DNA from: a virus
IMG/VR virus record: IMGVR_UViG_3300047558_000174
Span: 1 to 23,570 of that record
DNA: 23,570 nt
Direction: 5' to 3' (one strand)
Positions 1 to 18,629 of this stretch are shown piece by piece (positions within the stretch are counted from its first letter, which is position 1; each line of letters starts with the position of its first letter). The notes below the pieces were generated by a model. It worked only from the letters and a program-made list of their open reading frames with translations. It did not search any database and was not told the origin of the DNA. The translations under genes were made by a program, and so were the position numbers.

Positions 1-156
1 AATCCATATCGTGCTAAATCAGCCCAGGAAGCTATCGAGTATATCAGTAATGCCAGATGGGACGACCCACAGGTAAAGTGGCGTTATGTACACGTGACTC
101 TCGAACGTGAAGGTAATCGTGAAGTAAAAACTCGCGTGTGGACAATGATTGAATGA
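1..156 (+). CDS. 3' end of an unidentified gene (partial)
   Basis: The reading frame is open from the window edge and stops at TGA 154-156, leaving the last 51 residues. The fragment reads as a small soluble protein with a helix-like start (AQEAIEYI) and a basic C-terminal strand region (WRYVHVTLEREGNREVKTRVW). I do not recognise the family. Its stop overlaps the start of the next gene as ATGA, which suggests translational coupling. The start lies outside the window. Confidence 0.6.
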   Translation, partial: NPYRAKSAQEAIEYISNARWDDPQVKWRYVHVTLEREGNREVKTRVWTMIE

Positions 157-2785: not shown

Positions 2786-2799
2786 ATGGAAAGGTTGGT

Positions 2800-2869
2800 G
2801 ATAAATAATAGTGTAGTTCACGGGACGGCAATCCCCAACTACTCTAATGCTTACAAGGAGCAATCAGCA
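2800..2869 (+). promoter_or_regulatory. late promoter and structured 5' leader of the HNH gene
   Basis: GATAAATA at 2800-2807 resembles a T4-type late promoter. The leader after it has an outer stem GTAGTT/AACTAC and an inner stem GGGA/TCCC, then TCTAATGCT and AAGGAGCAATCAGC before ATG 2870. The same leader, with scattered changes mainly in the inner loop, precedes the unrelated GIY-YIG gene at 18015. The hairpin lies upstream of the ribosome site and could control its access. Confidence 0.55.
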
Positions 2870-4180: not shown

Positions 4181-4422
4181 TGGCTTGGGTATCTACATTC
4201 GCAGCCATCTTCCTACTTGATATTGTCTACACCTATTACCTACGTTGTGTAGCAAACAATCAAGTGATGGCGGCTAGTCTGTGGAGTGTTGCTTGCTATC
4301 TGTTAGGCAGTTACGCTGTTATCGAATACACATCAAACAATCTACTAATGATTCCCGCTATGCTCGGTGCGTTTTGTGGCACCTATGCTGGTATGAAACT
4401 CAAACACTTCAACGAGTCATAA
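4177..4422 (+). CDS. small polytopic membrane protein (81 aa)
   Basis: The protein has about three hydrophobic segments (residues 5-22, 30-49, 55-75) with an acidic residue in the first (FLLDIVYTYYLRC). The start overlaps the stop of the upstream membrane peptide, so the two are probably made together and might work as a pair. I do not know the family's function. It ends convergent with, and 14 bp inside, the leftward amidotransferase-like gene. Confidence 0.65.
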   Translation: MMAWVSTFAAIFLLDIVYTYYLRCVANNQVMAASLWSVACYLLGSYAVIEYTSNNLLMIPAMLGAFCGTYAGMKLKHFNES

Positions 4423-5044
4423 GTTCGTTAGTAAACTCTAGTAGCAAGTTGCCCTGTGGCTGATACTCGCCCTTCAACCAACTGTAGCTATCATACCAAA
4501 ATTGTTCACTCTCAGGATGACAGCCGATCAATCCTATTCTGTCCTGAAATATAGCCATTGAGTCGCCGTTGGCATATCGGGCAACAGTATCGTAGTTTCC
4601 AGGACCAACAAGAGCACAACCATCATAGAAGAACATCTTGTCTTTGGCACCGCGCCATTCGATATCAATGTTCTTAGCGTGTGGTCGGCGGGTATCTGTT
4701 CCAGGTTGTTTGATATATTGGACAGCGTCTACATCCCTAAGTATGTTGAAGTAGTGACTGCCTGCCCAATAAGCGCCCATACAGATGCCTAAGTACCTGC
4801 CACCACGCTCTAGGAAGCTCTCCACTGCGTTTTTATTAGACTTTAGTAGGGTGCCAAAGCTATCGCTGTCTCCGATGCCTCCAGGGAAGGCCACGATATC
4901 CACATCATCAAAGAATCCGTCTTCCATTTCGTTCTTTGAGAACAATCTGAAGTCATAGTGTCCCGACAATGCCTTAATCATCCCGTTCGCACATTGAACC
5001 GAGCACTTTGGGTCATAGATGAATAAGGCTATCTTTGGTTTCAC
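4409..5044 (-). CDS. class I glutamine amidotransferase-like / BPL-N domain protein
   Basis: A 211-residue protein with the DJ-1/GATase fold. The nucleophile elbow is LGICMGAYWAG with Cys88, preceded by an oxyanion-type FPGGIGDS. His176 and Glu178 in GCHPESEQ complete a Cys-His-Glu triad. The overall pattern resembles the N-terminal domain of biotin-protein-ligase-like proteins (BPL_N). The substrate is unknown. The start is GTG with no clear ribosome site, only 1-2 bp from an ATG-TGA, and a CTAAATAA box lies just upstream on this strand. It is the only leftward gene before 8 kb and runs against its neighbours, so it may have been acquired separately. Confidence 0.8.
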   Translation of the reverse strand: MKPKIALFIYDPKCSVQCANGMIKALSGHYDFRLFSKNEMEDGFFDDVDIVAFPGGIGDSDSFGTLLKSNKNAVESFLERGGRYLGICMGAYWAGSHYFNILRDVDAVQYIKQPGTDTRRPHAKNIDIEWRGAKDKMFFYDGCALVGPGNYDTVARYANGDSMAIFQDRIGLIGCHPESEQFWYDSYSWLKGEYQPQGNLLLEFTNELMTR

Positions 5045-5106: not shown

Positions 5107-5181
5107 GCGTTAGTAGCTAAGTGGCATAGCAGGCGATTCTAAACCGCTGAACCGTGGGTTCGATTCCCACCTAGCGCACCA
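5107..5181 (+). tRNA. tRNA with anticodon CUA (amber suppressor)
   Basis: A complete cloverleaf with encoded CCA. The acceptor is GCGTTAG/CTAGCGC with one G-U. The D stem is GCTA/TAGC with loop AGTGGCA. The T arm is GTGGG-TTCGATT-CCCAC and the variable loop is five bases. The anticodon stem 5132-5136/5144-5148 has G-U, G-C, C-G and G-C pairs, then an A-C mismatch next to the loop. The loop TTCTAAA (5137-5143) places CTA at 5139-5141, reading UAG. The discriminator is A. The charged amino acid cannot be told from sequence; glutamine is a guess based on the amber codon downstream. Confidence 0.88.
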
Positions 5182-6344: not shown

Positions 6345-8228
6345 ATGAAAAAAACTATAGTCAGCATGGCTACGGCCATGCTGTGTGCGTCTGTCTCCGC
6401 TCAAAATTTAGGATTTGAGACTGGTGACGCAACAGATTGGACTGTTATCAACGGCAGTCTCGCACCAAAAACAACATGGAACGGCAACGGTAGCGGTGCT
6501 AGTGTAATCTCTGAGATTACGGCACTGACTCAGGGCGGTATGACATGGAAACTTCAACCATACGGTAACAAGATGCTTGCTCTACAAGCAGGTGGTGCTG
6601 GTGGCACATTCGATCAAATGGCAACAAACCTAGGTCTAAGTGCTAGTAGTGTTACTGAGTTGAAGAGTATCCTCACTCAACAAGCTCAAGCAACAGGCCA
6701 AGGTCAGGGTAATCCTACTAATGCCGCATGGGCTAAGACAACTATCAACGTTCAGGCTGGCGACATATTCAAGATGAGTTGGAACTACACATCTACTGAC
6801 TATGTACCATTCAACGACGGTAGTATTACTACTCTGGTCGATCCTACCAACGCTACTAACCTAGCAAAGATTAACGGTCAGCTAAAACAATATGCGTTAC
6901 TGGGGTTTACTAACCAAGGTACCGGCGACTATTCTACTGGCAGTTATGGTAGTACTGGTTGGCAGATTGCTAATTATGAAATCATTAACGGCGGTCAATA
7001 TGTGCTGGGCTTCGCATCATTCAATTTAGATGATACTGCTCTCAGTCCTATTCTGTTAGTTGATAATCAAAACGGCTACACATACAAGAACGGTACCCTA
7101 TTCGGTCCAGTTGCTCCTAACCCAGGCACAACTGCTCCTAATAATACAGGCGCGCCGGCTCCTACGCCAACGCCAACTCCGCCAACTGTGGTATCAACCG
7201 TACAAGACCAAGTCTTGACAACTGGTTGGTCTGCTCAAGTGGCTGGCGCTGGTGTTATGACAACAGTACGTCATCACGATGCTAGTGACAATGGTAAGGT
7301 ACAGACTATCGCAGTCAAGGACACTAACACAACAGTTACTCCTATGATTAACACTGCGTCATACAATCTTGTAGAGACAAAGACATGGAGTGATGGCACA
7401 ACTACGACCTCAGTCGTAGGCACTGGTACTGCTTATCAAGCACTCAACCCAAATACAAGTGTTGCTGAAGTTGACCAGCCAAGTTATGTTGGTCGTGTTG
7501 ACCAGATGCCAAGTGCTGTTGCTACTAATCGCAAGATTCTAACAACAATGAACTTCAACAATGTTGGCTACATGAACTACGATGCTAAGAAGAATGGTAT
7601 GAATGGCAGTTCTAACGGCTTCGTTGTAGGCGGTATGAAGTATCTTGAGGGTGGTTGGAGTGTTGGTGCCGGTGTTGCTAACTTTGCTGGCGGCCTGAGT
7701 GGTACTGATGGTATCGCTCGTTCTACTACTAACGCTGGTAGTCTAATGGCAGAGCAAAAGACAGATGATGTTACCGTTGACTACAACCTAGGCATCGGCT
7801 TCAGCGATTTGACTAGTGCTCGTACAATCGGCCCATTCAATAACAGTAGTGCTACTAAATCTAAGACTGTGTTCTCACAAGTCAAAGTAACTGGTAACGA
7901 ACCTCTAGTTGGTGATATCCGACCAGTTGGCGGCGTAGGTATAGGCTATGACCAGACCAACGGTTATGTAGAGAGTGGCAGTATTCAGAGTGCCCGTGAA
8001 GTCGGTAAACAGACTGACCGCTGGCAGTATGCTTTCGTTGGTGGCAAGTGGGTCAGTGGCCCATTCTCTGCTGAGGTAATCAAGCGTACAGACAATGTTG
8101 CTATCGCTAGTGTTGCTATTGACCACGAGCTAGAAGATAACAAGAATGTTTATCTCCGCGCAAGTTATGTCGATGGTAGTGAGCTACGTGGCTTACAAGG
8201 TCAAGTTGGCTTGAGAATCAAGTTCTGA
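6345..8228 (+). CDS. secreted outer-membrane-barrel-like protein (autotransporter-like)
   Basis: A 627-residue protein. Residues 1-19 form a Sec signal peptide (MKKTIVS...CASVSA, cleavage before Gln20). An N-terminal passenger of about 250 residues begins NLGFETGDATDWT, a pattern seen in carbohydrate-binding or anchor-type beta-sandwich domains. A Pro/Thr linker (PAPTPTPTPP) follows near residue 270. The C-terminal half alternates strands and ends GLQGQVGLRIKF, with a terminal Phe as in the BAM recognition signal of outer-membrane barrels. AAAGGAAACAT precedes ATG. It could be exported to the host outer membrane to alter receptors or block superinfection (inference), or be a virion protein that only looks like one. 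A terminator follows. Confidence 0.75.
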   Translation: MKKTIVSMATAMLCASVSAQNLGFETGDATDWTVINGSLAPKTTWNGNGSGASVISEITALTQGGMTWKLQPYGNKMLALQAGGAGGTFDQMATNLGLSASSVTELKSILTQQAQATGQGQGNPTNAAWAKTTINVQAGDIFKMSWNYTSTDYVPFNDGSITTLVDPTNATNLAKINGQLKQYALLGFTNQGTGDYSTGSYGSTGWQIANYEIINGGQYVLGFASFNLDDTALSPILLVDNQNGYTYKNGTLFGPVAPNPGTTAPNNTGAPAPTPTPTPPTVVSTVQDQVLTTGWSAQVAGAGVMTTVRHHDASDNGKVQTIAVKDTNTTVTPMINTASYNLVETKTWSDGTTTTSVVGTGTAYQALNPNTSVAEVDQPSYVGRVDQMPSAVATNRKILTTMNFNNVGYMNYDAKKNGMNGSSNGFVVGGMKYLEGGWSVGAGVANFAGGLSGTDGIARSTTNAGSLMAEQKTDDVTVDYNLGIGFSDLTSARTIGPFNNSSATKSKTVFSQVKVTGNEPLVGDIRPVGGVGIGYDQTNGYVESGSIQSAREVGKQTDRWQYAFVGGKWVSGPFSAEVIKRTDNVAIASVAIDHELEDNKNVYLRASYVDGSELRGLQGQVGLRIKF

Positions 8229-8243
8229 TAGTCAGTAAACCTC

Positions 8244-8269
8244 AAAACCCCACTTCGGTGGGGTTTTTT
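8244..8269. terminator. bidirectional Rho-independent terminator
   Basis: AAAACCCCAC-TTCG-GTGGGG-TTTTTT: a 6-bp GC-rich stem with a UUCG loop, T-run on the right and A-run on the left, so it works on both strands. It ends the rightward barrel gene and the leftward array, whose last stop (8268-8270) touches it. Confidence 0.9.
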
Positions 8270-8459
8270 ATTTCTCCGCTACACCAGCCCAGTCCCATTG
8301 TAAGATGTATGCGGTCTCTAGTTTCTCATTGTAGATGAAAATGTGGACGGCATTTAGGCCTCCCCAGAATTCCCAGTCACGACCGCGTTCGCCGTTCTGT
8401 CTGAGCCATTTAACAACTTCTGCTTTTTGTCTATTGACTATGTATTCTTTGTTGGCCAT
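8268..8459 (-). CDS. array family protein 1 (last gene of the array)
   Basis: 63 residues. It has the family helix VVKWLRQNG, a W-rich strand (DWEFW), IFIYNEKLETAYILQW and an extra tail (DWAGVAEK). It is the only member with no gene downstream, and its C-terminus has lost the AGG TGG coding for R-W. This fits the idea that the AGG codon is kept to serve a following gene. Its ATG lies inside the Thr-Trp codons (AC-ATG-G) of the upstream gene, with no clear Shine-Dalgarno. Function unknown. Confidence 0.75.
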   Translation of the reverse strand: MANKEYIVNRQKAEVVKWLRQNGERGRDWEFWGGLNAVHIFIYNEKLETAYILQWDWAGVAEK

Positions 8460-8743
8460 GTTAGTAACATCATATTGTAAATTGAATCGTGAACGTCAAA
8501 GCGTTGAATACTGACGGAGTCATTGGGTGAGCCTAGATCAAACCATAGTTTTGTTCTAGTATCAGCATACGTTGCTCTGATCCAGTTGCCAATCTCCTTG
8601 TTGACTGATACGTGATACCACTCTTCGCCATCGACCCATGTTCCTTGTGATTCCATTGTCCAGTCTTTCATTTGAATGACCATTAGTATCTCCCTAAGAG
8701 TAAGGTCACTGTTGTCAAGATATTTTTCAAAATCTGTTTTCAT
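8438..8743 (-). CDS. array family protein 2
   Basis: 101 residues from ATG 8743. IGNWIRATYADTRTKLWF is the helix-strand part and FDVHDSIYNMMLLTW the C-terminal helix, with Thr for the usual Arg and a short tail PTKNT. It stops at TAG and overlaps the next start by 22 bp. If this TAG were suppressed, about 28 residues would be added. The upstream junction has a weak GATGTGGG in place of GAGGTGG. Confidence 0.78.
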   Translation of the reverse strand: MKTDFEKYLDNSDLTLREILMVIQMKDWTMESQGTWVDGEEWYHVSVNKEIGNWIRATYADTRTKLWFDLGSPNDSVSIQRFDVHDSIYNMMLLTWPTKNT

Positions 8744-9174
8744 GCCCACATCAATAAGAATAGCACATAGTCTTGTTCATTATCAAACGCAACAAACAGG
8801 GCATCACCGCCACCTATATCGTTGATGTGCCATTCTTCCTCTGTTGTGTGGTCCCATGCGATAGCAGTTTGTTTGTACACACGCAGTATATCATCCCGCC
8901 AATGGCCTTGGCAATTCTCTCTACACCATTTACGTAGTTCATCTAAGCCTTCGATCCAATCACCGTAACGAGTCCATGGTTCACCACGAGTAGTGTGATA
9001 TATGTGAACATAAGGGTAACCATGAAAGTAATGCTTAGTTGTATTCGCCCGCATATCACAGCGTGGATCATTTCTGCGCTCGTATGCTTCCTGTGTCCAC
9101 CCCATCTTTTTTAGATAGCGTTGATGTAAGTGTGCGTCCCACCGTTCTCTGAGACTCTTGAACAAGTTAGTCAT
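8740..9174 (-). CDS. array family protein 3 (longest member)
   Basis: 144 residues from ATG 9174, which overlaps the upstream stop (ATGA). The unique N-terminal half is basic (LRERWDAHLHQRYLKK). Family parts are LRKWCRENCQGHW and FVAFDNEQDYVLFLLMWA. No Shine-Dalgarno precedes it, because the upstream gene ends KYL instead of RW; translation probably depends on coupling. Function unknown. Confidence 0.8.
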   Translation of the reverse strand: MTNLFKSLRERWDAHLHQRYLKKMGWTQEAYERRNDPRCDMRANTTKHYFHGYPYVHIYHTTRGEPWTRYGDWIEGLDELRKWCRENCQGHWRDDILRVYKQTAIAWDHTTEEEWHINDIGGGDALFVAFDNEQDYVLFLLMWA

Positions 9175-9395
9175 AAGTATTTTAGGGCGAACCATGTAGC
9201 CCAACTTTCATTATAGAACTTGAACACACCGTGTGCCCGCTCTAGTATCTCAAAGCTGAAGTTTTCGTTTTGATAACGGGTAACGTGCCAAGCATAGTCG
9301 AAGTCAACACCTTGCCTTAGGCCAGATTCACGCATTTCATAAACAACTTGTAGAAGTTCGTGGGCGCCATCAAGATACAGTTTGTGTTGGGTCAT
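9171..9395 (-). CDS. array family protein 4 (degenerate C-terminus)
   Basis: 74 residues from ATG 9395 with ATGA overlap. It has FKFYNESWATWFALKYL in place of the standard ending, so the R-W pair is K-Y. The usual W-C-x-E-N helix is not obvious; LLQVVYEMRESGLRQG may stand in its place. It still keeps the F-x-F strand and the hydrophobic helix. Confidence 0.72.
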   Translation of the reverse strand: MTQHKLYLDGAHELLQVVYEMRESGLRQGVDFDYAWHVTRYQNENFSFEILERAHGVFKFYNESWATWFALKYL

Positions 9396-9619
9396 GTCAT
9401 AAACTTCAAGAGGAATATCAGATACTTCTTTTCATCAACGATACTATACTCGCCGGTAATCATCTGGCCGGTAGTAAGCACCATGAGGATGCCGTAGTGT
9501 TCTTTGAGGTAGTCTTGTAAGCCGTCTGGATTAGGGGCGCCACATTGCTTGTAGTACTCTTTTGCCACCTTACTTAGTCCACTCCAGTATCTGTTACGAT
9601 CAATTTGAGTTTGTGTCAC
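9392..9619 (-). CDS. array family protein 5 (GTG start)
   Basis: 75 residues. GTG 9619 lies five bases after GAGGTGG, which encodes the upstream gene's R-W; no in-frame ATG lies near it. QDYLKEHYG is the helix and YSIVDEKKYLIFLLKFMT the C-terminal part, with K-F for R-W. It overlaps the upstream gene by 20 bp. Confidence 0.72.
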   Translation of the reverse strand: MTQTQIDRNRYWSGLSKVAKEYYKQCGAPNPDGLQDYLKEHYGILMVLTTGQMITGEYSIVDEKKYLIFLLKFMT

Positions 9620-9980
9620 GGGGCCACCTCAATAGCATCAGAGTGTAGAGCGATTCATCCATGATGTATCTAATGTAACTAACATGGCAACCATCATCTT
9701 CTTCGGCATACTTCCATAGTGATGGGTGTTGCTCTTCTACCCATGGTTGAACACTGCGTATGCGAACATCGACTGCTATCTTGTTACCAGGATATTGAAT
9801 ACACTCATTCTGATTACGTACTTCTTTGTAGTTGAGCATACCCAATGCTTTGCCATCTGGATGCTCAGTGTACGTGAAGTAACTATCAGGCTCACCAGGC
9901 TTTGGCGGACGAGTGTGCTTAACGTCACCCTTGTATTTGGATCGGATCCAGTCAAGTACGGCAGTTCGTAATGGTGTCAT
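9600..9980 (-). CDS. array family protein 6
   Basis: 126 residues from ATG 9980, coupled by ATGA to a zinc-finger-like gene. The N-terminal region is family-unlike and polar (KHTRPPKPGEPDSYF). VRIRSVQPWVEEQHPSLW resembles the W-helix and YIMDESLYTLMLLRW is the standard ending, with an extra PRDTNSN. The R-W codons are AGG TGG and serve the next gene's GTG. Confidence 0.78.
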   Translation of the reverse strand: MTPLRTAVLDWIRSKYKGDVKHTRPPKPGEPDSYFTYTEHPDGKALGMLNYKEVRNQNECIQYPGNKIAVDVRIRSVQPWVEEQHPSLWKYAEEDDGCHVSYIRYIMDESLYTLMLLRWPRDTNSN

Positions 9981-10183
9981 TCTTCGAACTTTCTCTCTTG
10001 ATATTTGTTACAAGTTTCACAGTAACGACCTTGACGGATGTAGATACTAGATGCGCTACGTAGAGCACCGCTCCACTTATGCCACTTGTGTAGCCCAATA
10101 GAGCACCAAAATGGCTGCTCTGAAAGTAGAGTTTTCTCTTCTAACATCCTAACTAAGTTTTCTTTTTCTAATCTACCACTCAT
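9977..10183 (-). CDS. zinc-finger-like small protein, not of the array family
   Basis: 68 residues from ATG 10183, preceded by GAGGTGGCT of the upstream member. FWCSIGLHKWHKW and YCETCNKY give a C-x4-H and C-x2-C set, a likely zinc site of a kind seen in many phage small proteins. It lacks the LLRW ending. It uses the array's embedded ribosome site but does not supply one in the same way, so it looks like an insertion into the array. Confidence 0.7.
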   Translation of the reverse strand: MSGRLEKENLVRMLEEKTLLSEQPFWCSIGLHKWHKWSGALRSASSIYIRQGRYCETCNKYQERKFEE

Positions 10184-10401
10184 AGCCACCTCAGTGCTGT
10201 CAATAACGCCACGTGCTCATCTCTAAACCAAAACTGAATAGCGGCCCTTGTGACTAATATCTTTGCCTCGTATCTGTTTCTATCCCACTCACATTGTTCA
10301 TCTACCCAATCAATGATTGTTCTAACTTCATCTACTCTTGAGATAATGTCATAAGTATCAGAGGTCCTGAGGGGCACATCGACTTTATAGTTTAACTCCA
10401 T
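10180..10401 (-). CDS. array family protein 7
   Basis: 73 residues if started at ATG 10401, which lies inside the upstream gene's Arg-Trp codons (CG-ATG-G). Neither this ATG nor the GTG at 10443 has a clear Shine-Dalgarno. IIDWVDEQCEWDRNRY is the helix and IQFWFRDEHVALLTALRWL the ending. The R-W codons AGG TGG give GAGGTGG to the zinc-finger gene. Confidence 0.75.
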   Translation of the reverse strand: MELNYKVDVPLRTSDTYDIISRVDEVRTIIDWVDEQCEWDRNRYEAKILVTRAAIQFWFRDEHVALLTALRWL

Positions 10402-10676
10402 CGCAATACAAACAGAATGTAATCTGCTTGGTCTCTGAACCACATTTGATCGAAATACGCATGGCGCCAGCGTGACCAGGCATCAGGCTTTCGATCCGGC
10501 GGACCAAAATGCTCAATACACCAGATGACAACTTTATCGTAGTCTTCATGGCGATAGTCAGCCTTTAGCCACTCACGACTAAATTTATACTTCGTGACTG
10601 GTCTATTAAATTCTTGAATAAGGATCTCCTTACAAAGATTATCAGTCATCAATCGTTTACTATTGAATCCCGTCAA
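10392..10676 (-). CDS. array family protein 8 (TTG start proposed)
   Basis: 94 residues from TTG 10676, placed five bases after the upstream gene's GAGGTG; the alternative ATG 10649 has no ribosome site. VIWCIEHFGPPDRKPDAW and QMWFRDQADYILFVLRWS show the family. Its Arg is CGA, not AGG, and here the next start ATG overlaps the R-W codons. Confidence 0.72.
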   Translation of the reverse strand: MTGFNSKRLMTDNLCKEILIQEFNRPVTKYKFSREWLKADYRHEDYDKVVIWCIEHFGPPDRKPDAWSRWRHAYFDQMWFRDQADYILFVLRWS

Positions 10677-10902
10677 AGCCCCACCTCAACATAAAAACTA
10701 ATCGTTGTGCTTCGTTCTCTATGCGCCATAGATTGACACCAAACGCAGATGCGCCTCGCTGACCGTTGTCATAGATTGATATGCCGTTCTCAGCACACCA
10801 TTGTATAACTTCTAAGTAATAGGTGCGTGACACCATAATATCACGCTCGTCACTAATTAACGAGTAGCCACTACCGTTAGTGAGGAACACCTTTGTCGCC
10901 AT
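10660..10902 (-). CDS. array family protein 9 (ends TAG TAA)
   Basis: 80 residues from ATG 10902, overlapping the upstream stop as TGATG. VIQWCAENGISIYDNG and NLWRIENEAQRLVFMLRW are the family parts, with a GFDGIQ tail. The stop is a tandem TAG TAA, so an amber suppressor would add one residue only. Its AGG TGG serves the next gene's TTG. Confidence 0.78.
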   Translation of the reverse strand: MATKVFLTNGSGYSLISDERDIMVSRTYYLEVIQWCAENGISIYDNGQRGASAFGVNLWRIENEAQRLVFMLRWGFDGIQ

Positions 10903-11087
10903 CAGCGTCTACCCCACATACCTACACGTGAGTAACCTAACTCACGCTTGATTTCTTTTCGGTCATCGCCATCGAACTCAGCAAGATCAGGATAAGGTTT
11001 ACGGCGCTCACGCTTGTAACGCTTTGCTTCACGCTCTAGGCGTTCCATGTCTTCTGATGTTGCTTTAGGTATCTTATGCTTTTTCAT
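10902..11087 (-). CDS. highly charged small protein, not of the array family
   Basis: 61 residues from ATG 11087, preceded by TTGAGGTGGGC. It is Lys/Arg/Glu-rich (MERLEREAKRYKRERRKPYP), probably helical or coiled, with no LLRW ending. With the gene at 9977 it is one of two clear strangers in the array. Function unknown. Confidence 0.68.
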   Translation of the reverse strand: MKKHKIPKATSEDMERLEREAKRYKRERRKPYPDLAEFDGDDRKEIKRELGYSRVGMWGRR

Positions 11088-11305
11088 GCCCACCTCAATC
11101 TAAACAGGGTAGCCTCATTGCTATTTGTAAAATAATAATCTGTTGACCTGTAGTGATACACCGTGTACCATCTACCGGTAACATTCTCTATCAGCCAATC
11201 TTCTATGAATTGTCTGCTGTCGGCAATGATAACACCCTTACTGTCTTCATCTTCCTCAAGCGTGACGATTTCAGGCCAAATCGATTTCTTCATTCGTCTT
11301 GTCAT
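11084..11305 (-). CDS. array family protein 10
   Basis: 73 residues from ATG 11305 with ATGA overlap and GAGGTGGGC upstream. IEDWLIENVTGRWYTVY is the W-helix and first strand; DYYFTNSNEATLFRLRWA is the ending. The N-terminus is unlike its neighbours (MKKSIWPEIVTLEEDEDSK). Confidence 0.82.
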   Translation of the reverse strand: MTRRMKKSIWPEIVTLEEDEDSKGVIIADSRQFIEDWLIENVTGRWYTVYHYRSTDYYFTNSNEATLFRLRWA

Positions 11306-11658
11306 GCCCACCTCAGTAAGAATAGGGTCAAGTCGTCATCGTTCTTGAACCAGAATGTGGAGTTGTTGACGTACCAGCGTTCTAGTTTACCTTCGCTCAT
11401 CCATGGTAGTCTAGTAGGGCCAAACTGCTCTACACACCATTCAACTGCTTTGTCCCACTTGATACTGCGACCTGTAATAGCATAAGCGCCATCATCATAC
11501 ACAGGACGGGCCGAGTGATACTGTGAACCTAGAATCTTGCCATCACTGACTTCGATTCTGTTCCAGCCAAGTAGCGACATAAGTAATTCAGTATCGATAT
11601 CACGTGCCATTTTAGCGGCCGCTTGATCGATTGCTTGTTGATAAATTTGTTGGTTCAT
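11302..11658 (-). CDS. array family protein 11 (long N-terminal extension)
   Basis: 118 residues from ATG 11658 with GAGGTGGGG upstream. The N-terminal 35 residues look helical (QAIDQAAAKMARDIDTELLM). The family core AVEWCVEQFGPTRLPW and FWFKNDDDLTLFLLRWA is one of the clearest in the array. Confidence 0.84.
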   Translation of the reverse strand: MNQQIYQQAIDQAAAKMARDIDTELLMSLLGWNRIEVSDGKILGSQYHSARPVYDDGAYAITGRSIKWDKAVEWCVEQFGPTRLPWMSEGKLERWYVNNSTFWFKNDDDLTLFLLRWA

Positions 11659-11837
11659 CCCCACCTCAGGTAATAAATGATTGCGTGGCTCTCGGGTACG
11701 TTATAGATTATATCATCTTGTCCTAATTGCCACAATGGCCAATTCGTCCAATCTTCGGCGCCAGGGCAGTTCTCTTTGATCCATTCACATCGTTCCCACC
11801 AAGTGATACGGTCAGTGATGACTAGTGTTTCTCTCAT
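11655..11837 (-). CDS. array family protein 12
   Basis: 60 residues from ATG 11837; the upstream junction is GAGATGGGT (Arg AGA), a weaker ribosome site. CEWIKENCPGAEDWTNW and IIYNVPESHAIIYYLRWG give the core with almost no N-terminal extension. It is close to the minimal form of the family. Confidence 0.82.
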   Translation of the reverse strand: MRETLVITDRITWWERCEWIKENCPGAEDWTNWPLWQLGQDDIIYNVPESHAIIYYLRWG

Positions 11838-12121
11838 ACCCATCTCAATAAGAATAAGGTAACGTTTGCTTCGTCTTTGAAAAAGAATGTTAGGTCATGA
11901 CCAACCCATGCGCGGCGCCATGATCGTTGTCGCCCTCCCTCGCCGAAGTTATCTGTACACCAATTATAGATTTCGGCAGCATCGTACTTAGTATCATACG
12001 TTCGCTTGACTGTAATCTTGTGTTTGTACTTACTTCTACGCTCGGTATGTATCACTCGATCTTCATCGTCTTTTATTTCTATCCAATCTTCATCATCGAA
12101 GTAAGGCTTTACTATATTCAT
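11834..12121 (-). CDS. array family protein 13
   Basis: 95 residues from ATG 12121. IYNWCTDNFGEGGRQRSW and FFFKDEANVTLFLLRWV are the family parts. The upstream gene ends Q-W (CAA TGG), which removes the Shine-Dalgarno, so this start relies on the ATGA overlap alone. The N-terminus is acidic then basic (DDEDWIEIKDDEDRV). Confidence 0.8.
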   Translation of the reverse strand: MNIVKPYFDDEDWIEIKDDEDRVIHTERRSKYKHKITVKRTYDTKYDAAEIYNWCTDNFGEGGRQRSWRRAWVGHDLTFFFKDEANVTLFLLRWV

Positions 12122-12387
12122 AACCATTGTAATTGTATAATTGTCATTAGTTCTTCACGTATGATGTAGATAGCACGATGACGCCCACCGTAGGTCTTCC
12201 ACAATTCTCTATCTTGTGTTTCAATCCAATCGCCGAACCAATAACTTGTTTGTATTCTATACCATCTCACATCATCTTCTACAAAACCCCACGGCTCACA
12301 ACCTCGCTCGAAGTGATATAGTCGTGTGCTATGTCCTTCTGGCGGATTCTTTGTGTGAAAGTAAACACTGTCGATTTCGCCACTCAT
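12118..12387 (-). CDS. array family protein 14 (Q-W ending)
   Basis: 89 residues from ATG 12387, preceded by CTAAGGTGGTT. FGDWIETQDRELWKTYG and IYIIREELMTIIQLQWL show the family with Arg replaced by Gln. The replacement also removes the AGG used at other junctions. Confidence 0.78.
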   Translation of the reverse strand: MSGEIDSVYFHTKNPPEGHSTRLYHFERGCEPWGFVEDDVRWYRIQTSYWFGDWIETQDRELWKTYGGRHRAIYIIREELMTIIQLQWL

Positions 12388-12599
12388 AACCACCTTAGAA
12401 TGAACAGCAATTCTTGCTTACTATTTTTCAACCACACGACACCGTGCGAGTAATAGTAATCATAACCATAACTTTTGAAGTTCTCTCTGAGCCAGTCTAA
12501 CACTTCTTTAGTTACCTTATACTCGATACGATATCTAAATATGTTTTGTTTCTTAGCTCCAACACATATGTGAAGAGCCTCATATCTGCCTACCTTCAT
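12384..12599 (-). CDS. array family protein 15
   Basis: 71 residues from ATG 12599 with CTGAGGTGGCT upstream. VLDWLRENFKSYGYDYYY and VVWLKNSKQELLFILRWL are the core. It supplies AAGGTGG to the next gene. Confidence 0.82.
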   Translation of the reverse strand: MKVGRYEALHICVGAKKQNIFRYRIEYKVTKEVLDWLRENFKSYGYDYYYSHGVVWLKNSKQELLFILRWL

Positions 12600-12775
12600 A
12601 GCCACCTCAGCATGAATAGGGTTTGGTGCGCTTCCTCTCTAAACATGAATCGTTCGTTCATGTAGTCCCAGTTACGTTGACCACAGTTCTCGTTACACCA
12701 TGTTGATAGCGTATACCAATCTCCCATGGAGTTCCACCACTTTGATGTTCGTTTGTAAGGTACGTAATACTTCAT
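12596..12775 (-). CDS. array family protein 16 (minimal form)
   Basis: 59 residues from ATG 12775 with TTGAGGTGGGC upstream. LSTWCNENCGQRNWDYM and RFMFREEAHQTLFMLRWL make a compact core. Two cysteines in W-C-x-E-N-C are shared with other members (8740, 14078) and could bind metal or pair, but no further Cys/His support this. Confidence 0.83.
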   Translation of the reverse strand: MKYYVPYKRTSKWWNSMGDWYTLSTWCNENCGQRNWDYMNERFMFREEAHQTLFMLRWL

Positions 12776-13014
12776 GCCCACCTCAATAAGAATAGGGTCA
12801 TGTAAGTCTCAGATTCGAATTCGAGTAGCATGGTGCCACTGCGACCGAGCATCATTCTACTGCTATCAGGACGGCGATGCGTGTAGCGGCGTCTAGCGTG
12901 GTACTCTCGTGCGAGTACATCCCAGATGCTACCATCAGTGGAGGGGTCTAAGTTAGCCCAGTAGTGGTCAACAATTTTGTTCCAGTACGGGTCAAGATTG
13001 ATTACTGTGTCCAT
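12772..13014 (-). CDS. array family protein 17
   Basis: 80 residues. The ATG at 13014 lies inside the upstream R-W codons (CG-ATG-G) with no Shine-Dalgarno. The W-helix is weak (IWDVLAREYHARRRY), but MLLEFESETYMTLFLLRWA is canonical. Confidence 0.8.
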   Translation of the reverse strand: MDTVINLDPYWNKIVDHYWANLDPSTDGSIWDVLAREYHARRRYTHRRPDSSRMMLGRSGTMLLEFESETYMTLFLLRWA

Positions 13015-13379
13015 CGTAGCAAGAACAGGGTCAAGTCAGCATCGTGTTTGAAGTGCCAAACACCCCATGACAACTTGTTTGTCCAGCGTGGATTCTTGTA
13101 GCCAGTTGATTCTAATGGTCCATATGTTTCTTCACACCACTGGTTGACTTTCTTTTCAAAACCCCATGGCGCATTATTCACCTTCGCCCAGCACTTGAAC
13201 TTGCCACGTTGAACCATTTGGCCATGAGTAATTTCTACCGGCTTGCGCTTCTCCATGATGGTTGTCCACTGTTGTACGTAATCGTTCACCATACTCTTTC
13301 CTGTTCCGCGTCCATACATTACGGCGAGTGTGTCTGGCTTCCAGCCGCCACTCTCAATGTCTGCCCATACTGTTGTCAT
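13002..13379 (-). CDS. array family protein 18 with a P-loop-like N-terminal motif
   Basis: 125 residues from ATG 13379 with ATGA overlap. The family core is VNQWCEETYGPLESTG and WHFKHDADLTLFLLRWTQ. The N-terminus has MYGRGTGKSMVNDYVQQW, which resembles the deviant Walker A of phage packaging ATPases, but the protein is too short for an ATPase domain. Its Arg codon is CGA, and the next ATG overlaps it. Confidence 0.8.
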   Translation of the reverse strand: MTTVWADIESGGWKPDTLAVMYGRGTGKSMVNDYVQQWTTIMEKRKPVEITHGQMVQRGKFKCWAKVNNAPWGFEKKVNQWCEETYGPLESTGYKNPRWTNKLSWGVWHFKHDADLTLFLLRWTQ

Positions 13380-13663
13380 TGACCTAATACCTTTGGTTGA
13401 TACACTAACAAATCAAAAGCAGTAGCGTATTCGGTTTGGGGTTCCATATGAAAGCCTGTGCCCCACATGATCCACACTCTACGCTTGTATGCCTTCGTCC
13501 AAAACAGAGGTTGACCTGTTACCGATCTTCTTGGCCAGATAACGAACGTTTCTGTCCACGGGTAACAATCTGCTCCGTCTTCAATTATAGTGTAGTCCAT
13601 GGTTTGTGTCAACTGTCTGTAGTGCTTATTGTCACCAATACTTCTGTTCCAAAGTATCTTCAT
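13376..13663 (-). CDS. array gene with divergent C-terminus (doubtful family member)
   Basis: 95 residues from ATG 13663. It is Trp-rich (FVIWPRRS, PLFW, VWIMWGTGF) and ends TAFDLLVYQPKVLGQ, where TAFDLL could be a relic of TLFLL. No R-W pair is present. A different site (TTAGGTCA) precedes the next ATG. It may be a decayed member or a separate family. Confidence 0.6.
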   Translation of the reverse strand: MKILWNRSIGDNKHYRQLTQTMDYTIIEDGADCYPWTETFVIWPRRSVTGQPLFWTKAYKRRVWIMWGTGFHMEPQTEYATAFDLLVYQPKVLGQ

Positions 13664-13902
13664 GACCACTTGAGTAAGAAGATGGTGTATAAGTTATCAT
13701 CAATGATTTCATATCGTTCAATCTGGCCGTAATCGTGACTCAAGTGTACACGCAAGCCGTAATTGATTTCTAGGTAATGTAAGTGTGAATCAATTTTTGG
13801 ATCACCAGAAACATATCGCTCAGCACCAGTCAAGAACGCCACATCAGGGCCCTCATGGCGATACTGTTTCTGTACCATTTTTATTACTGCTTGTAAGCTC
13901 AT
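13660..13902 (-). CDS. array family protein 19 (K-W ending)
   Basis: 80 residues from ATG 13902 with TTGAGGTGGTC upstream. LHYLEINYGLRVHL takes the place of the W-helix, and RYEIIDDNLYTIFLLKWS is the ending with Lys for Arg (AAG TGG), which weakens the next ribosome site to CAAGTGG. Confidence 0.78.
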   Translation of the reverse strand: MSLQAVIKMVQKQYRHEGPDVAFLTGAERYVSGDPKIDSHLHYLEINYGLRVHLSHDYGQIERYEIIDDNLYTIFLLKWS

Positions 13903-14081
13903 GACCACCTCAATAAGTAAATCAAATATACATCTTCATTCATCCATAAGTTTTCTAACCCATAGTCATATTCTTCACCCCAACGATCACCGTTGACTCC
14001 GAAGTTTTCAACAAGCCACATTTTAACATCATACTTGCGAGTCCAATGCCAGCGTTCGGTTACGATGCCGTACTGATTCAT
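13899..14081 (-). CDS. array family protein 20
   Basis: 60 residues from ATG 14081 (ATGA overlap). ATG 14093 is possible; the frame is open farther upstream inside the previous gene without a better start. VKMWLVENFGVNGDRW and NLWMNEDVYLIYLLRWS are the family parts. Its AGG TGG supplies the next gene. Confidence 0.76.
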   Translation of the reverse strand: MNQYGIVTERWHWTRKYDVKMWLVENFGVNGDRWGEEYDYGLENLWMNEDVYLIYLLRWS

Positions 14082-14257
14082 GAACCTGTCCATCTTAATA
14101 AGAATAGGGTGTAGTCTGCTTCGCTGTAGAATTGAAATGTGCCATGTAGTTTGTACTTCCATGTACCCTGACAATTCTTCTCGCACCAGTCAAGACGATT
14201 AGACCATGCGCCCTCTGATGGGTGAACGTCATCTGGGGTTCTGTACCAATATGTCAT
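14078..14257 (-). CDS. array family protein 21
   Basis: 59 residues from ATG 14257, which shares one base with the upstream TAA (TAATG) and follows GAGGTGGGCATA. RLDWCEKNCQGTW and FQFYSEADYTLFLLRW are canonical, with a TGS tail. Its Arg is AGA; a separate ACAGG lies before the next ATG. Confidence 0.82.
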   Translation of the reverse strand: MTYWYRTPDDVHPSEGAWSNRLDWCEKNCQGTWKYKLHGTFQFYSEADYTLFLLRWTGS

Positions 14258-14454
14258 TATGCCCACCTCAATAGAAAAAGAGTCATATCCGACTCATTTT
14301 TGAAAGTGAAGAAAGTAGTGCCGAACGCAGAATCTATCCACCATACCTGATCGTCGTAATTGGCCCAGCCGCCGTAGCCTATATTTTCTTTACACCATTT
14401 GGTCATATCACCCTGTAGATGATATTTGTCTCGACCGAACTCAATTTTGTGCAT
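14257..14454 (-). CDS. array family protein 22
   Basis: 65 residues from ATG 14454, preceded by GGGGGTAGT. MTKWCKENIGYGGW and FFTFKNESDMTLFLLRWA are canonical. It follows the upstream TAG stop after one base. Confidence 0.82.
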   Translation of the reverse strand: MHKIEFGRDKYHLQGDMTKWCKENIGYGGWANYDDQVWWIDSAFGTTFFTFKNESDMTLFLLRWA

Positions 14455-14455
14455 A

Positions 14456-14659
14456 CTACCCCCAACGGAGTTCAAATATTGTTACATCCCTATCGTCTTC
14501 GAATTCAAACTCATAGACACCTGCTGAGTAGCCAGCTTGCTCTTGTACAGTAGTTAGGTCCCAATTCCCGACGCAGAATTGTCCGCACCAGTCTAAGACT
14601 TCATCTAACCCACCGTACTTGACAAAGATTGTGACCGTATGGTCAGACTTGATTGCCAA
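14456..14659 (-). CDS. array family protein 23 (first gene of the array; TTG start, TAG stop)
   Basis: 67 residues. TTG 14659 lies in the end of the dCMP deaminase gene, eight bases after GAGGTAA; the frame has no ATG. VLDWCGQFCVGNW and YEFEFEDDRDVTIFELRWG show the family. It stops at TAG; suppression would add five residues before TGA. As the first member it links the array to the nucleotide-metabolism genes upstream. Confidence 0.78.
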   Translation of the reverse strand: MAIKSDHTVTIFVKYGGLDEVLDWCGQFCVGNWDLTTVQEQAGYSAGVYEFEFEDDRDVTIFELRWG

Positions 14660-15092
14660 TTTGGGTTACCTCGATTCCACTTGTTCGTAGAAACTTGACC
14701 CCGTAATCATCACGATATTGATTGCCATAATAAACACGGCGAATGCCTGACTGAAGGATAAGTTTAGCGCAGTCGATACAAGGTGCGTGAGTGATAAAAA
14801 TATCAGCATCGCGGCCACTGTTAGTGCTCCGAGCCAGTTTTGAAATTGCGTTTGATTCAGCATGAAGTACCTCCGGTTTGGTCTTGAGCACTTTTACAAA
14901 CTTCTCGTCTACTTCACTTATGATTTCGTCTTCGCAGTTATTGTCCCAGCCACTGGGCATACCATTGTAACCGTAACCGATAACTGAATCATCTTTGACA
15001 ATGACACTACCTACTTGTAGTCTACGAGCATGGGATAGTTGGGCGCAACGCTTTGCCCAGTCCATGTATAAGTCAATGTATTTTTGCTTCAT
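14643..15092 (-). CDS. deoxycytidylate (dCMP) deaminase
   Basis: 149 residues. The zinc-dependent cytidine-deaminase signature is complete: His77 and Glu79 in LHAESNAI, Cys105 and Cys108 in APCIDCAKL. The N-terminal RLQVGSVIVKDD and YNGMPSGWDNNCED match the T4-like dCMP deaminase family. It converts dCMP to dUMP for thymidylate synthesis during phage DNA replication. GGAGTAGGGA precedes ATG. It lies in a leftward group with a MazG-like enzyme and a DexA-like exonuclease, all nucleotide or nucleic-acid metabolism. Confidence 0.93.
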   Translation of the reverse strand: MKQKYIDLYMDWAKRCAQLSHARRLQVGSVIVKDDSVIGYGYNGMPSGWDNNCEDEIISEVDEKFVKVLKTKPEVLHAESNAISKLARSTNSGRDADIFITHAPCIDCAKLILQSGIRRVYYGNQYRDDYGVKFLRTSGIEVTQIGNQV

Positions 15093-15771: not shown

Positions 15772-16047
15772 TTAGTCCTTAAAAATGTTTGACCATTGTT
15801 TGAGTTTTTCGATTTTGGCTTTTTCTGCCTGGTCTAAGTGTACACGATTTATGATACCTTTGTCAAGTAAAATCGTAACCATGGCCATAACATCACCAAG
15901 TTCTTCTTCTAAATGCTCACGGTTAGTTTTAGGTTTACCTGGTTTGAAGTTGTCGATACCAAAACGACTAATTTTACTTACAGCTTGAATTACCTCGGCA
16001 CATTCTTCTTGAAGAATGTCCATTACTTCTTTTGTTGAATCATCCAT
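15772..16047 (-). CDS. MazG-like nucleotide pyrophosphohydrolase
   Basis: 91 residues from ATG 16047, which overlaps the upstream TAA (TAATG); GTG 16062 is less likely. It is all-alpha, with metal-binding glutamates in QEECAEVIQA (residues 13-22) and EEELGDVMAM (47-56), the E-E-x-x-E...E-x-x-D pattern of the MazG/NTP-PPase superfamily. It probably hydrolyses (d)NTPs or an alarmone-like substrate; the substrate cannot be read from sequence. It is coupled to the DexA-like gene. Confidence 0.82.
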   Translation of the reverse strand: MDDSTKEVMDILQEECAEVIQAVSKISRFGIDNFKPGKPKTNREHLEEELGDVMAMVTILLDKGIINRVHLDQAEKAKIEKLKQWSNIFKD

Positions 16048-16646
16048 TATACTTTGTTCCACTTTACGAATGGTGTAACGGCACGGCCGTCTTGTAGCTT
16101 TGCGTTCTTTAATTCACGATATACGTTTTGCACCCAGAAACTCTGATCGATAGCATCTGCTAGTGCGTTATGTTGCGTGATGATCTTTCGCTGTGGATCG
16201 ATACCAACATCAACGATTGTGCGAACATCACGAACTTGCCAGAATTCCCACGGAGATTTTCTTTCTAGTTTACCAAAAATGAAATCGCACATCATTACGT
16301 CAAATGTTGCTCCATTTGACCATACACGCTTAGCACCCCAGCAAAATTTGTAGATTTCATCAAATGCTTCTTGAATGGTAAGTCTTGGGTTTTCTGGCGT
16401 ACCTTCACCTAGTGCTTCTTCTTGTGCTTCAGGCGACTGAGTGCCCCACCATTCGATGGTACTATCATCTACTCTGAGTCCTAGTTCAACACAGCTATCT
16501 AAATCTATTCTGATGTACTTAACATCAAATTTGTTATCTATTGCTTCGTTTCCCAATGGGTCAAATTTAACTAGACCAACAGTAACGGGAGCTCCATCCC
16601 ATCGTGGAGATAAGGTCTCGAAGTCAATCATTACATCAGTATTCAT
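16047..16646 (-). CDS. dexA: DEDDh 3'-5' exonuclease, DexA-like
   Basis: 199 residues. The catalytic set is visible: Asp8 and Glu10 in MIDFET, Asp116 in SNGATFDVMM, His159 and Asp164 in QHNALADAID. The WDGAP, EWWGTQS and ALGEGTP context matches the Rv2179c/T4 DexA group. T4 DexA degrades DNA or RNA from the 3' end; here host DNA breakdown or nucleic-acid turnover is likely. AAGGATGATGT precedes ATG. A 13-bp inverted repeat and a UUCG hairpin lie in its upstream region. Confidence 0.88.
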   Translation of the reverse strand: MNTDVMIDFETLSPRWDGAPVTVGLVKFDPLGNEAIDNKFDVKYIRIDLDSCVELGLRVDDSTIEWWGTQSPEAQEEALGEGTPENPRLTIQEAFDEIYKFCWGAKRVWSNGATFDVMMCDFIFGKLERKSPWEFWQVRDVRTIVDVGIDPQRKIITQHNALADAIDQSFWVQNVYRELKNAKLQDGRAVTPFVKWNKV

Positions 16647-16969: not shown

Positions 16970-16998
16970 ATTATAGCACTATCGTGGCTATAAGTCAA
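16970..16998 (-). promoter_or_regulatory. sigma-70 promoter, extended -10
   Basis: TTGACT, 17 bp, TATAAT with TGC before the -10. It drives the winged-helix gene; its spacer differs from the repeated set farther on. Confidence 0.75.
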
Positions 16999-17905: not shown

Positions 17906-17934
17906 ATTATATCACGGAATAGTATTCCTGTCAA
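17906..17934 (-). promoter_or_regulatory. sigma-70 promoter with palindromic spacer
   Basis: Perfect TTGACA and TATAAT, 17 bp apart, with TGA in the extended -10 position. The spacer contains GGAATA-G-TATTCC, a 13-bp palindrome that could bind a repressor. It drives the metallophosphoesterase. Confidence 0.82.
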
Positions 17935-18014: not shown

Positions 18015-18629
18015 GTGAATATTTATACTATCTATCGAGCAACGAATACTATTACTAATAAAGTTTATATTGGTTTTACATCCGAGACCTTATCTCGCCG
18101 ATCATCAGGGCATAAGCGTGACGCTCTTTTAGAGCAGAGTGATGCTAAATTTCATAAAGCCATACGTAAATACGGATGGGACAATTTCATATTTGATGTT
18201 ATATATCAAGCAAAAGAAGATTTGCCACCAAAGCAGTCACATACGTGTAAAGTCATGGAAGATTATTTCATCAATGAATACAACTCACTCGAAGATGGAT
18301 ACAATTCTGCTCCTGGCGGAGGGGCCTGGCCCATTATGAAGGGAGAGGACCATCCACTGTACGGCGTTGGACACTCGGATGATACTAAGAAGTTACTCAG
18401 TCGGAATCATCACGATGTTAGTGGAACTAACAACCCAATGTACGGTAAATTGGGCAAAGACAATCCTAAATCAATGAAGTTCTGGGCAATAGATCCAGAT
18501 GGTAATAGATATGAAGATATTGGCATCGCTAACTTCTGTCGCAACAATGGTCTACTGGATTCAAACGTAGTAGGAGTACTAAAGGGCGACCGCAAACAGC
18601 ACAAAGGTTGGAAGTTTGGTTACCTCTGA
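18015..18629 (+). CDS. GIY-YIG homing endonuclease with NUMOD3 repeats
   Basis: 204 residues. YTIYRATN and NKVYIGFTS (residues 4-22) are the GIY and YIG strands; RRSSGHKRD follows, and the catalytic glutamate is probably in VMEDYFIN. Two NUMOD3-like segments (GEDHPLYG, GTNNPMYG) precede a C-terminal DNA-binding module (ANFCRNNGLLD, HKGWKFGYL) shared with the HNH enzyme at 2870. The start is GTG with AGGAG eight bases upstream. It is the only rightward gene among leftward early genes and its end overlaps the convergent gene by 10 bp. Confidence 0.9.
   Translation: MNIYTIYRATNTITNKVYIGFTSETLSRRSSGHKRDALLEQSDAKFHKAIRKYGWDNFIFDVIYQAKEDLPPKQSHTCKVMEDYFINEYNSLEDGYNSAPGGGAWPIMKGEDHPLYGVGHSDDTKKLLSRNHHDVSGTNNPMYGKLGKDNPKSMKFWAIDPDGNRYEDIGIANFCRNNGLLDSNVVGVLKGDRKQHKGWKFGYL

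Follow-up and report, generated by a model that had tools for sequence, protein, structure and literature searches.

The window, the whole 23,570-nucleotide stretch analysed here, carries a leftward train of small genes at 8268-14659. The first-pass annotation had described a run of 26 tightly packed genes, and all 26 minus-strand open reading frames (ORFs) were present at the positions listed below. With starts corrected, 17 of the 25 junctions were exact 4-base ATGA overlaps, six were other overlaps, and the other two were gaps of 1 and 10 bases. This co-oriented array is probably co-transcribed, and its genes are probably translationally coupled. Most of them encode a shared domain, here called LRW; E values are those of the LRW profile.

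14456..14659, minus strand: gene 1, 67 aa, LRW member ending ELRWG (E=4e-10)
14257..14454, minus strand: gene 2, 65 aa, LRW member by profile (AlphaFold model, pLDDT 94.9)
14078..14257, minus strand: gene 3, 59 aa, LRW member by profile; orthologues of 63-67% in L041 and L115
13899..14081, minus strand: gene 4, 60 aa, LRW member by profile; orthologue of 73% in L114
13660..13902, minus strand: gene 5, 80 aa, marginal LRW member (E=0.03); orthologue of 92% in L105
13376..13663, minus strand: gene 6, 95 aa, without LRW domain; conserved at 23 places in other loci
13002..13379, minus strand: gene 7, 125 aa, LRW member (E=2e-10) whose N-terminal arm is long
12772..13014, minus strand: gene 8, 80 aa, LRW member by profile; start codon within the CGATGG (R-W) of gene 7
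12596..12775, minus strand: gene 9, 59 aa, LRW member (E=4e-12)
12384..12599, minus strand: gene 10, 71 aa, LRW member (E=2e-9)
12118..12387, minus strand: gene 11, 89 aa, divergent member with tail QLQWL, by tail and homologues in other phages
11834..12121, minus strand: gene 12, 95 aa, LRW member (E=1e-12)
11655..11837, minus strand: gene 13, 60 aa, LRW member by profile; orthologue of 85% in L105/L117
11302..11658, minus strand: gene 14, 118 aa, LRW member by profile, N-terminus AAKMARDIDTELLMSLLGWNRIEV
11084..11305, minus strand: gene 15, 73 aa, LRW member (E=2e-11)
10902..11087, minus strand: gene 16, 61 aa, without LRW domain; orthologue of 93% in L105/L117
10660..10902, minus strand: gene 17, 80 aa, LRW member (E=1e-6)
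10392..10649, minus strand: gene 18, 85 aa, LRW member by profile; KYKFSR-subfamily orthologue
10180..10401, minus strand: gene 19, 73 aa, LRW member by profile; start codon within the CGATGG (R-W) of gene 18
9977..10183, minus strand: gene 20, 68 aa, without LRW domain; orthologue of 66% in L105
9600..9980, minus strand: gene 21, 126 aa, marginal LRW member (E=0.026); 67% to L105
9392..9619, minus strand: gene 22, 75 aa, divergent member with tail LLKFMT, by tail and homologues in other phages
9171..9395, minus strand: gene 23, 74 aa, divergent member; subfamily of 12 members in 12 loci
8740..9174, minus strand: gene 24, 144 aa, LRW member by profile; subfamily of 23 members in 23 loci
8438..8743, minus strand: gene 25, 101 aa, divergent member with tail MLLTW
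8268..8459, minus strand: gene 26, 63 aa, marginal LRW member (E=0.002), final gene of the train
8244..8267: hairpin AAAACCCCACTTCGGTGGGGTTTT and T run, separating the array end from the convergent gene 6345-8228
13584..13612, minus strand: within gene 6, a perfect sigma-70 promoter-like site (TTGACA-17-TATAAT)
14643..15092, minus strand: dCMP deaminase, directly upstream of the array and overlapping it
15772-16062 and 16047-16646: MazG and exonuclease, in the same train as dCMP deaminase and array
16970..16998, minus strand: sigma-70 promoter-like site (11/12) upstream of the exonuclease-MazG-dCMP deaminase-array train
17906..17934, minus strand: perfect sigma-70 promoter-like site further upstream

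A 46-column LRW profile, iterated over the window and other phages, matched 20 array ORFs at E<0.03, of which 16 reached E<1e-3. Genes 11 and 22 (12118 and 9392) were added by their tails and their homologues in other phages, bringing the total to about 22-23, in agreement with the earlier description of a tandem paralogous family of at least 23 small proteins. The tail was missing from genes 6, 16 and 20 (13376, 10902 and 9977), as that description had implied. The matches are not due to chance: at E<0.05, one and the same profile gave 14 matches with the real ORFs and 0-1 match in each set of residue-shuffled ORFs. Relatives were gathered from viral contigs with a DNA pattern for the tail, and 658 members were found in 118 viral stretches versus none in 118 pattern-matched bacterial or archaeal stretches; the bacterial and archaeal genomes searched with this pattern yielded only stretches without LRW members.

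The codons of the R-W tail are usually AGG TGG, which is the Shine-Dalgarno sequence of the following gene. In 580 of 699 unique members the next start lay 3-12 nt after the beginning of the W codon, and in 440 the arrangement was exactly TGG-NN-ATG. The arginine codon was AGG in 266 of 368 members with a following start (72%; scan seeds left out of this count) versus 12 of 58 without one (21%; Fisher p=8e-14), and the figure elsewhere was 8%. A typical cassette end, L-R-W-x-stop, reads TTG AGG TGG NNA TGA, and its final codons thus also provide the Shine-Dalgarno sequence and start of the next gene. Since the conserved protein tail is also the ribosome-binding site, which is an unusual use of one stretch of sequence, each gene would be a plug-in unit, and a cassette could be acquired, dropped or moved with translation left intact. 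We infer translational coupling between cassettes from this arrangement.

Such double use speaks for the alternative, already named in the first-pass annotation, that the tail is a shared nucleotide signal only and that unrelated ORFs carry a translated Shine-Dalgarno sequence at their ends. The identity of R-W with that sequence was borne out, but as the whole explanation this reading was refuted and we give it next to no probability. A profile built from other phages only, and lacking the last nine residues, still detected 8 array ORFs at E<0.05 (4 at E<1e-3), with zero matches outside the array; alignment of just the last seven residues had been proposed as the sign of a mere signal. W was retained in 85% of members without a following start, relatives in Pseudomonas phage PA5oct have W-C-x-E-N and F-x-F but lack R-W, and a shared fold was predicted confidently. 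The array core is a genuine paralogous protein family with a real domain that is more than the tail.

In the structure predictions, the LRW domain is about 60 aa long, with a shared beta-alpha-beta-beta-beta-alpha fold modelled for gene 2 at pLDDT 94.9. A Foldseek search of this model against the PDB gave no match at E<=0.001 (best TM ~0.5), including no significant match to a solved member of the ferredoxin-like or RRM-like fold. About 14 structural matches had a probability >=0.98, all of them uncharacterised proteins of uncultured phages.

About 100 stretches of uncultivated phages contain about 700 unique members of the family, with 33 members within 11.6 kb in one stretch (L125). It is widespread in contigs of uncultivated jumbo phages and nearly absent from cultured phages, and the curated libraries and cultured-phage searches made here miss it. 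Among 107 diverse members and the window members, the domain had no match in PHROGs and no significant match in Pfam, where the best matches, of one or two members, were near E=0.007. Tblastn with conserved window members and the consensus found no match in the phage collection; matches in Aeromonas T5-like phages were dropped, being actually a ClpP-like protease. LRW members were not found in T4, KVP40, S-PM2, P-SSM2, HTVC008M, GAP32, R1-37 or XacN1. Weak cultured-phage relatives occur in PA5oct and Agrobacterium phage Atu_ph07, in few copies and no array (E 2e-5 to 0.03). In PA5oct (gp237, gp210, gp209) the W-C-x-E-N helix and F-x-F strand are followed by a hydrophobic helix, and two of the three genes have dCMP deaminase and MazG genes nearby, like the array of the window. 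The three PA5oct genes are annotated as hypothetical only. The virus carrying the array is of jumbo type and infects bacteria.

The constant core with a variable remainder that had been described was supported. The N-termini, said to be almost all different, indeed differ between paralogues, but they are conserved between orthologues of other phages. The best relative lay in another phage for 613 of 668 members and in the member's own array for 55, and a subfamily occurred just once in each phage (25 members in 25 loci, 24 in 24, 23 in 23). Across 98 independent orthologue pairs, dN/dS was 0.22 for N-termini and 0.18 for the core, so the proposed check for excess non-synonymous change in the N-termini revealed no excess. 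These results showed that each cassette belongs to an old, separately conserved orthologous subfamily under purifying selection, and such selection with one-per-phage retention is less typical of arms-race genes. The earlier reading, in which hypervariable binders or decoys are diversified by conflict with host defences, draws on the constant core, variable remainder, tandem layout and gene-content turnover between relatives. The low N-terminal dN/dS, the best relatives in other phages and the single copies make it very unlikely, and N-terminal diversification as a full explanation was rejected on these grounds. A possible role against the host survives from that reading; the hypervariable decoy set was not supported.

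In related phages, the N-terminal arms of some subfamilies derive from the major capsid protein of T4 type and are either segment A, the conserved Gol-like stretch (~gp23 95-132), or segment B, the spine-helix stretch (~258-307, T4 numbering); a third capsid stretch was seen in one or two members. Pfam Gp23 (PF07068) matched inside array ORFs with a best E of 7e-14, and above the curated cut-off in many ORFs of other phages. In a set of 100 members, Gp23 matched 8 and the PHROG major head protein 7 (best 8e-11), and cluster-level hhalign to the capsid gave P=93 and 91, with the remaining clusters at <=1.2. The matched pieces are short (~25-85 profile positions), no array ORF holds a full-length HK97-type capsid protein, and full-length T4-type capsid genes lie elsewhere on the same contigs, their nearly invariant segment differing from the diverged array segments. 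The predicted capsid-type arm is helical and of low confidence beside the well-folded domain. Other N-terminal arms, compared with phage proteins including the complete proteome of the 352-kb contig G025, matched just the capsid protein, apart from members that were truncated or divergent. Sequence comparison thus showed that the late major capsid protein of the phage itself is the source of the two recurrent arms in related phages. Although these arms are homologous to pieces of the Gp23 family (PF07068, phrog_138), they lack the capsid fold, are joined to a folded domain of unrelated origin and occur in sigma-70-promoter-rich regions.

In the window array segment A was unrecognisable, and the sole capsid-type member was gene 14, whose N-terminus resembles the segment-B subfamily, weakly on its own (E=0.076). 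Gene 11 is similar to the WIExQ...RYIIxEEL subfamily and gene 18 belongs to the KYKFSR subfamily, both of which bear segment A in other phages, and gene 21 is 42% to a segment-A ORF (L331:7481-7852). Taken jointly, the LRW protein family, the dual coding and this ancestry are very probably correct.

It is distinctly unlikely that the array is largely a non-adaptive accumulation in which a self-contained unit ATG...AGGTGGNNATGA recombines easily at its conserved 3' end and copies and captured fragments of other genes pile up. Recombination could use the shared 3' DNA as a substrate, capsid fragments were captured, and the density of L125 would fit; against it stand the strong purifying selection, orthologues 66-93% identical between close relatives, and a subfamily in up to 25 loci.

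Perfect sigma-70 sites numbered 45 on the array strand versus 2 on the opposite strand, with 1.3 expected. In G025, the first 60 kb, including the capsid gene, had zero 12/12 sites, and several lay around the array at 123-128 kb. The position of perfect sigma-70 promoters on the array strand indicates that the array may be expressed early. The hairpin at 8244..8267 is a probable terminator and, being palindromic, could act in both directions. T4-type early host-takeover clusters likewise consist of tiny, packed and overlapping, co-oriented genes with strong consensus sigma-70 promoters, and their gene content turns over between relatives. T4 early genes are mostly unrelated to one another, whereas here ~23 neighbours form one homologous family whose tail doubles as a ribosome-binding site. 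Searches of the open-access literature found no description of such gene arrays, in line, for the tandem arrangement, with the earlier remark that no described phage system built this way was known.

These features suggest, at slightly better than even probability, an early host-interaction role for the array. The LRW domain would be a common scaffold, and the various arms and surfaces would bind different factors of the host shortly after infection. Capsid-armed members may be early stand-ins for the late protein, pre-empting host factors that recognise the capsid (EF-Tu/Lit-type or another sensor). To our knowledge, the triggers of capsid-sensing immunity are known and phage countermeasures mostly are not. 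Capsid proteins trigger several host defences (PMC3014915, PMC9712102, PMC11312562), and Gol has been placed in the first quarter of gp23, described as its most conserved region (PMC3014915). Segment A also lies in that quarter and may overlap the Gol region, and a similar peptide stands at the N-terminus of array members; unlike in Gol/Lit/EF-Tu exclusion, its carrier is a small protein of its own that is apparently early. If displayed, a Gol-type peptide could also activate Lit instead of blocking it. A capsid-sensor decoy role of the capsid-armed members is possible though unlikely, and it could account for just a few subfamilies, since most have no capsid-like arm. We entertain only tentatively, as rather unlikely, the fuller version in which early scaffold proteins display capsid pieces that occupy or disarm capsid sensors ahead of the genuine capsid protein, other members do likewise for other host factors, and the tails unite the set.

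Alternatively, LRW proteins may be capsid-assembly regulators or chaperones that bind the major capsid protein of their phage, the arms mimicking the N-arm/E-loop strand and spine helix. The HK97-type capsid regions matched by the arms form subunit contacts, which speaks for this, as do the origin of the recurrent arms from one protein and the full T4-type capsid gene retained by the host phages. However, arrays lie far from the capsid gene in sigma-70-promoter-rich regions, that of the window beside nucleotide-metabolism genes; most subfamilies are unrelated to the capsid, and in several A-type ORFs the GVQPM core persists while the E-loop strand after it has been lost. We regard this reading as distinctly unlikely, and equally its supposed purpose, the timing or shaping of assembly of a large head.

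It is highly improbable that capsid-segment proteins are weapons against competing phages, dominant-negative subunits by which the heads of T4-type phages in the same cell are kept from assembling. Early expression would suit exclusion, and the array segments differ from the nearly invariant capsid segment of their phages; but carriers have the same capsid type as such competitors and would poison themselves unless protected, and most members have no capsid segment. The best overall explanation, to which we give about even chances, is an early host-interaction toolkit whose capsid-armed members would act on factors due to encounter the capsid protein at a later stage. Through the capsid-derived arms, early phage proteins may be linked to capsid-sensing immunity in a way that can be tested.

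The 26 minus-strand ORFs at 8268-14659 proposed by the first-pass annotation are real, running from gene 1 (14456-14659) to gene 26 (8268-8459). After correction of the starts, 17 of the 25 junctions were exact ATGA overlaps, 6 were other overlaps and 2 were gaps of 1 and 10 bases. Genes for dCMP deaminase, MazG and an exonuclease lay upstream of the array in the same train with no real gap, and the train ended at a palindromic terminator-like hairpin (8244-8267) facing a convergent gene. The cultured-phage collection held no near match to this 23,570-base IMG/VR contig.

BLAST and profile searches linked array members across about 50 residues. Viral stretches for profile iteration were picked by the DNA pattern YTNTTYNTNYTNAGGTGGNNATGA, and the iterated profile yielded a 46-column domain, here the LRW domain, with the consensus WDEIIEWCEENFGPEGGRWYYNYGEGGDTFYFKDEKDATLFLLRWS. 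At E<1e-3 it had 674 members, spread over the window and 102 of the 118 viral stretches (103 loci in all), some of them contigs of 330-380 kb. The same DNA pattern picked 118 stretches in bacterial and archaeal genomes, none with a member, indicating that the tail-coding pattern alone does not yield the family. It had been proposed that a match confined to the conserved C-terminal R-W tail would mean a shared nucleotide signal rather than a protein family. A profile built from other phages only, minus the last nine residues, still recovered array members, with no other hit in the window, which argues for a protein family. The domain was absent from both Pfam and PHROGs, and the libraries and open-access papers that were searched contained no described family or system covering the array.

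When the profile was run against twelve cultured phages, weak relatives appeared only in PA5oct and Atu_ph07. The three in PA5oct have no R-W tail:

NC_071039.1, 165381-165596: LRW relative, annotated hypothetical
NC_071039.1, 181548-181805: LRW relative, annotated hypothetical
NC_071039.1, 181966-182187: LRW relative, annotated hypothetical

Two of these three have dCMP deaminase and MazG genes nearby, like the window array, and the PA5oct relatives offer a practical way into experimental work. The most expanded array seen, on another viral contig (L125, 94,375 bases), packs at least 33 members into 11.6 kb. Its tail is distinct (SEAHKNWFILRWS), and within this one contig several subfamilies have expanded.

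AlphaFold2 modelling of gene 2 from a 107-sequence alignment gave a strand, a helix, three strands and a helix at a mean pLDDT of 94.9, a confident prediction showing the fold of the LRW domain as modelled. The model had no significant structural match in the PDB. In a viral structure library it had one match at E=8e-7 and roughly a dozen others at probability >=0.98; every one was an uncharacterised protein from an uncultured phage.

The tail is dual-coded, its coding sequence also carrying signals for translation of the next gene. The usual junction reads TTG AGG TGG NNA TGA. Its GAGGTG can pair with the 3' end of 16S rRNA, and the W codon opens five bases ahead of the next ATG. At the junctions leading into genes 8, 19 and 26, the start codon instead overlaps the W codon of the gene before (CGATGG or ACATGG). 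Among 699 unique members, 580 had a start 3-12 nt past the beginning of the W codon, 440 of them exactly as TGG-NN-ATG. The Arg codon was AGG in 266 of 368 members with a following start versus 12 of 58 without (Fisher p=8e-14; 8% in the remainder of these genes), in a sample biased because loci were found via this junction, with scan seeds removed from the counts and same-array neighbours left in. W was kept in 92% with a following start versus 85% without, and Arg in 80% versus 58%. These counts make W a feature of the protein and tie AGG, and in part the choice of Arg, to translation initiation.

The first-pass annotation had also read the array as a set with diversifying N-termini, which the comparison with other phages contradicted. 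Window paralogues were only distantly alike, and for each one scored a closer relative existed in a different phage; across the whole family, the best match lay in another locus for 613 of 668 members. N-terminal clustering gave one copy per phage, with subfamilies of 25 in 25 loci, 24 in 24, 23 in 23 and 16 in 16. The nearest relatives (L105 and L117) shared window genes 14-5-6-13-16-17-20-21-25, several at 66-93% identity and in window order except for gene 14, genes 20 and 21 being absent from the L117 stretch; more distant phages carried reshuffled subsets. Across 98 independent orthologue pairs, dN/dS was 0.22 for N-termini, 0.18 for the core and 0.22 for the tail, values showing purifying selection on retained orthologues. 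On these comparisons the array is best described as an old conserved toolkit in which whole cassettes turn over, not a hypervariable set. An array gene without the LRW domain (13376-13663) ranked with the most conserved genes in the train, found at 23 places in other loci with 53-80% identity in those listed; its product had no Pfam match.

Perfect sigma-70 promoters (TTGACA-16..18-TATAAT) in 78 array loci numbered 45 on the array strand versus 2 on the other, with 1.3 expected per strand. All eight window sites of 11/12 or better were on the array strand. In a 352-kb contig (G025), the capsid gene's region had no perfect site and the array lay among several. This promoter pattern suggests that host RNA polymerase probably transcribes the array early.

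A search of the contigs with PF07068 (T4 major capsid protein) detected genuine capsid genes and also, which was not expected, short matches within array ORFs. Array proteins in over 10 records carried segment A (profile ~2-60, E down to 7e-14) close to the N-terminus. Segment B (~130-222) also recurred, sometimes ~1.3 kb or less from A (G080, G063, G068), and one or two members carried a further C-terminal capsid stretch. PHROGs and Pfam agreed: of 100 long-armed members, 7-8 matched the major head protein, the only family to recur. Subfamily-level hhalign against the capsid gave P=93 (A) and 91 (B), versus <=1.2 for others. By sequence, some of the arms found in other phages descend from the capsid protein. 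Segment A aligns to T4 gp23 ~95-132 (PNLIAFDICGVQPM) and segment B to ~258-307. A review puts the Lit-activating Gol peptide in the first quarter of gp23 and describes it as the most conserved part (PMC3014915), and we infer that segment A probably overlaps it. In an AlphaFold model of one protein carrying segment A, the arm was helical and uncertain (pLDDT ~56-64) and the LRW domain well folded (blocks 84-96). Among the window genes, number 14 is similar to the B subfamily, and numbers 18, 11 and 21 sit near A-type subfamilies; no clear segment A was found in the window, so the capsid link is weaker for this phage.

Of the earlier interpretation as binders or decoys, the family stood, the diversification did not, and a role against the host is possible. 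The array would be expressed early with translational coupling between cassettes, and the LRW domain would be a common scaffold whose specific arms or surfaces act on host factors. Capsid-armed members would encounter these factors ahead of the capsid. Defences known to be triggered by the capsid include Lit, CapRel and Thoeris, and escape mutants also implicate PifA, Pycsar and CBASS (PMC9712102, PMC11312562). Two points weaken this mechanism: capsid arms are missing from most subfamilies, and displaying a trigger could switch a sensor on instead of blocking it.

Elsewhere in the window, visual inspection together with matches in other loci gave three genes for probable HNH- and GIY-YIG-like homing endonucleases (310-1032, 2786-3502 and 18015-18629); one report mentions a homing endonuclease amplifying anti-defence loci (PMC13096335). 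An AhpC-type peroxiredoxin (2240-2785) and an AhpD/CMD-family protein (3507-4019) lie close together with an HNH-like gene between them, and further contigs with arrays also carry both (L288 at 91%/80%, L087 and L273). A tRNA with a CTA anticodon (5107-5181), called tRNA-Pyl by ARAGORN, is a possible amber suppressor, although TAG still serves as a stop in array genes. The 627-aa protein at 6345-8228 has a signal-peptide-like start and an autotransporter-type beta-domain, with no relative in other loci. A biotin-protein-ligase N-terminal-like protein (4409-5044) is matched at 63-68% in three array-bearing contigs (L026, L062 and L084).
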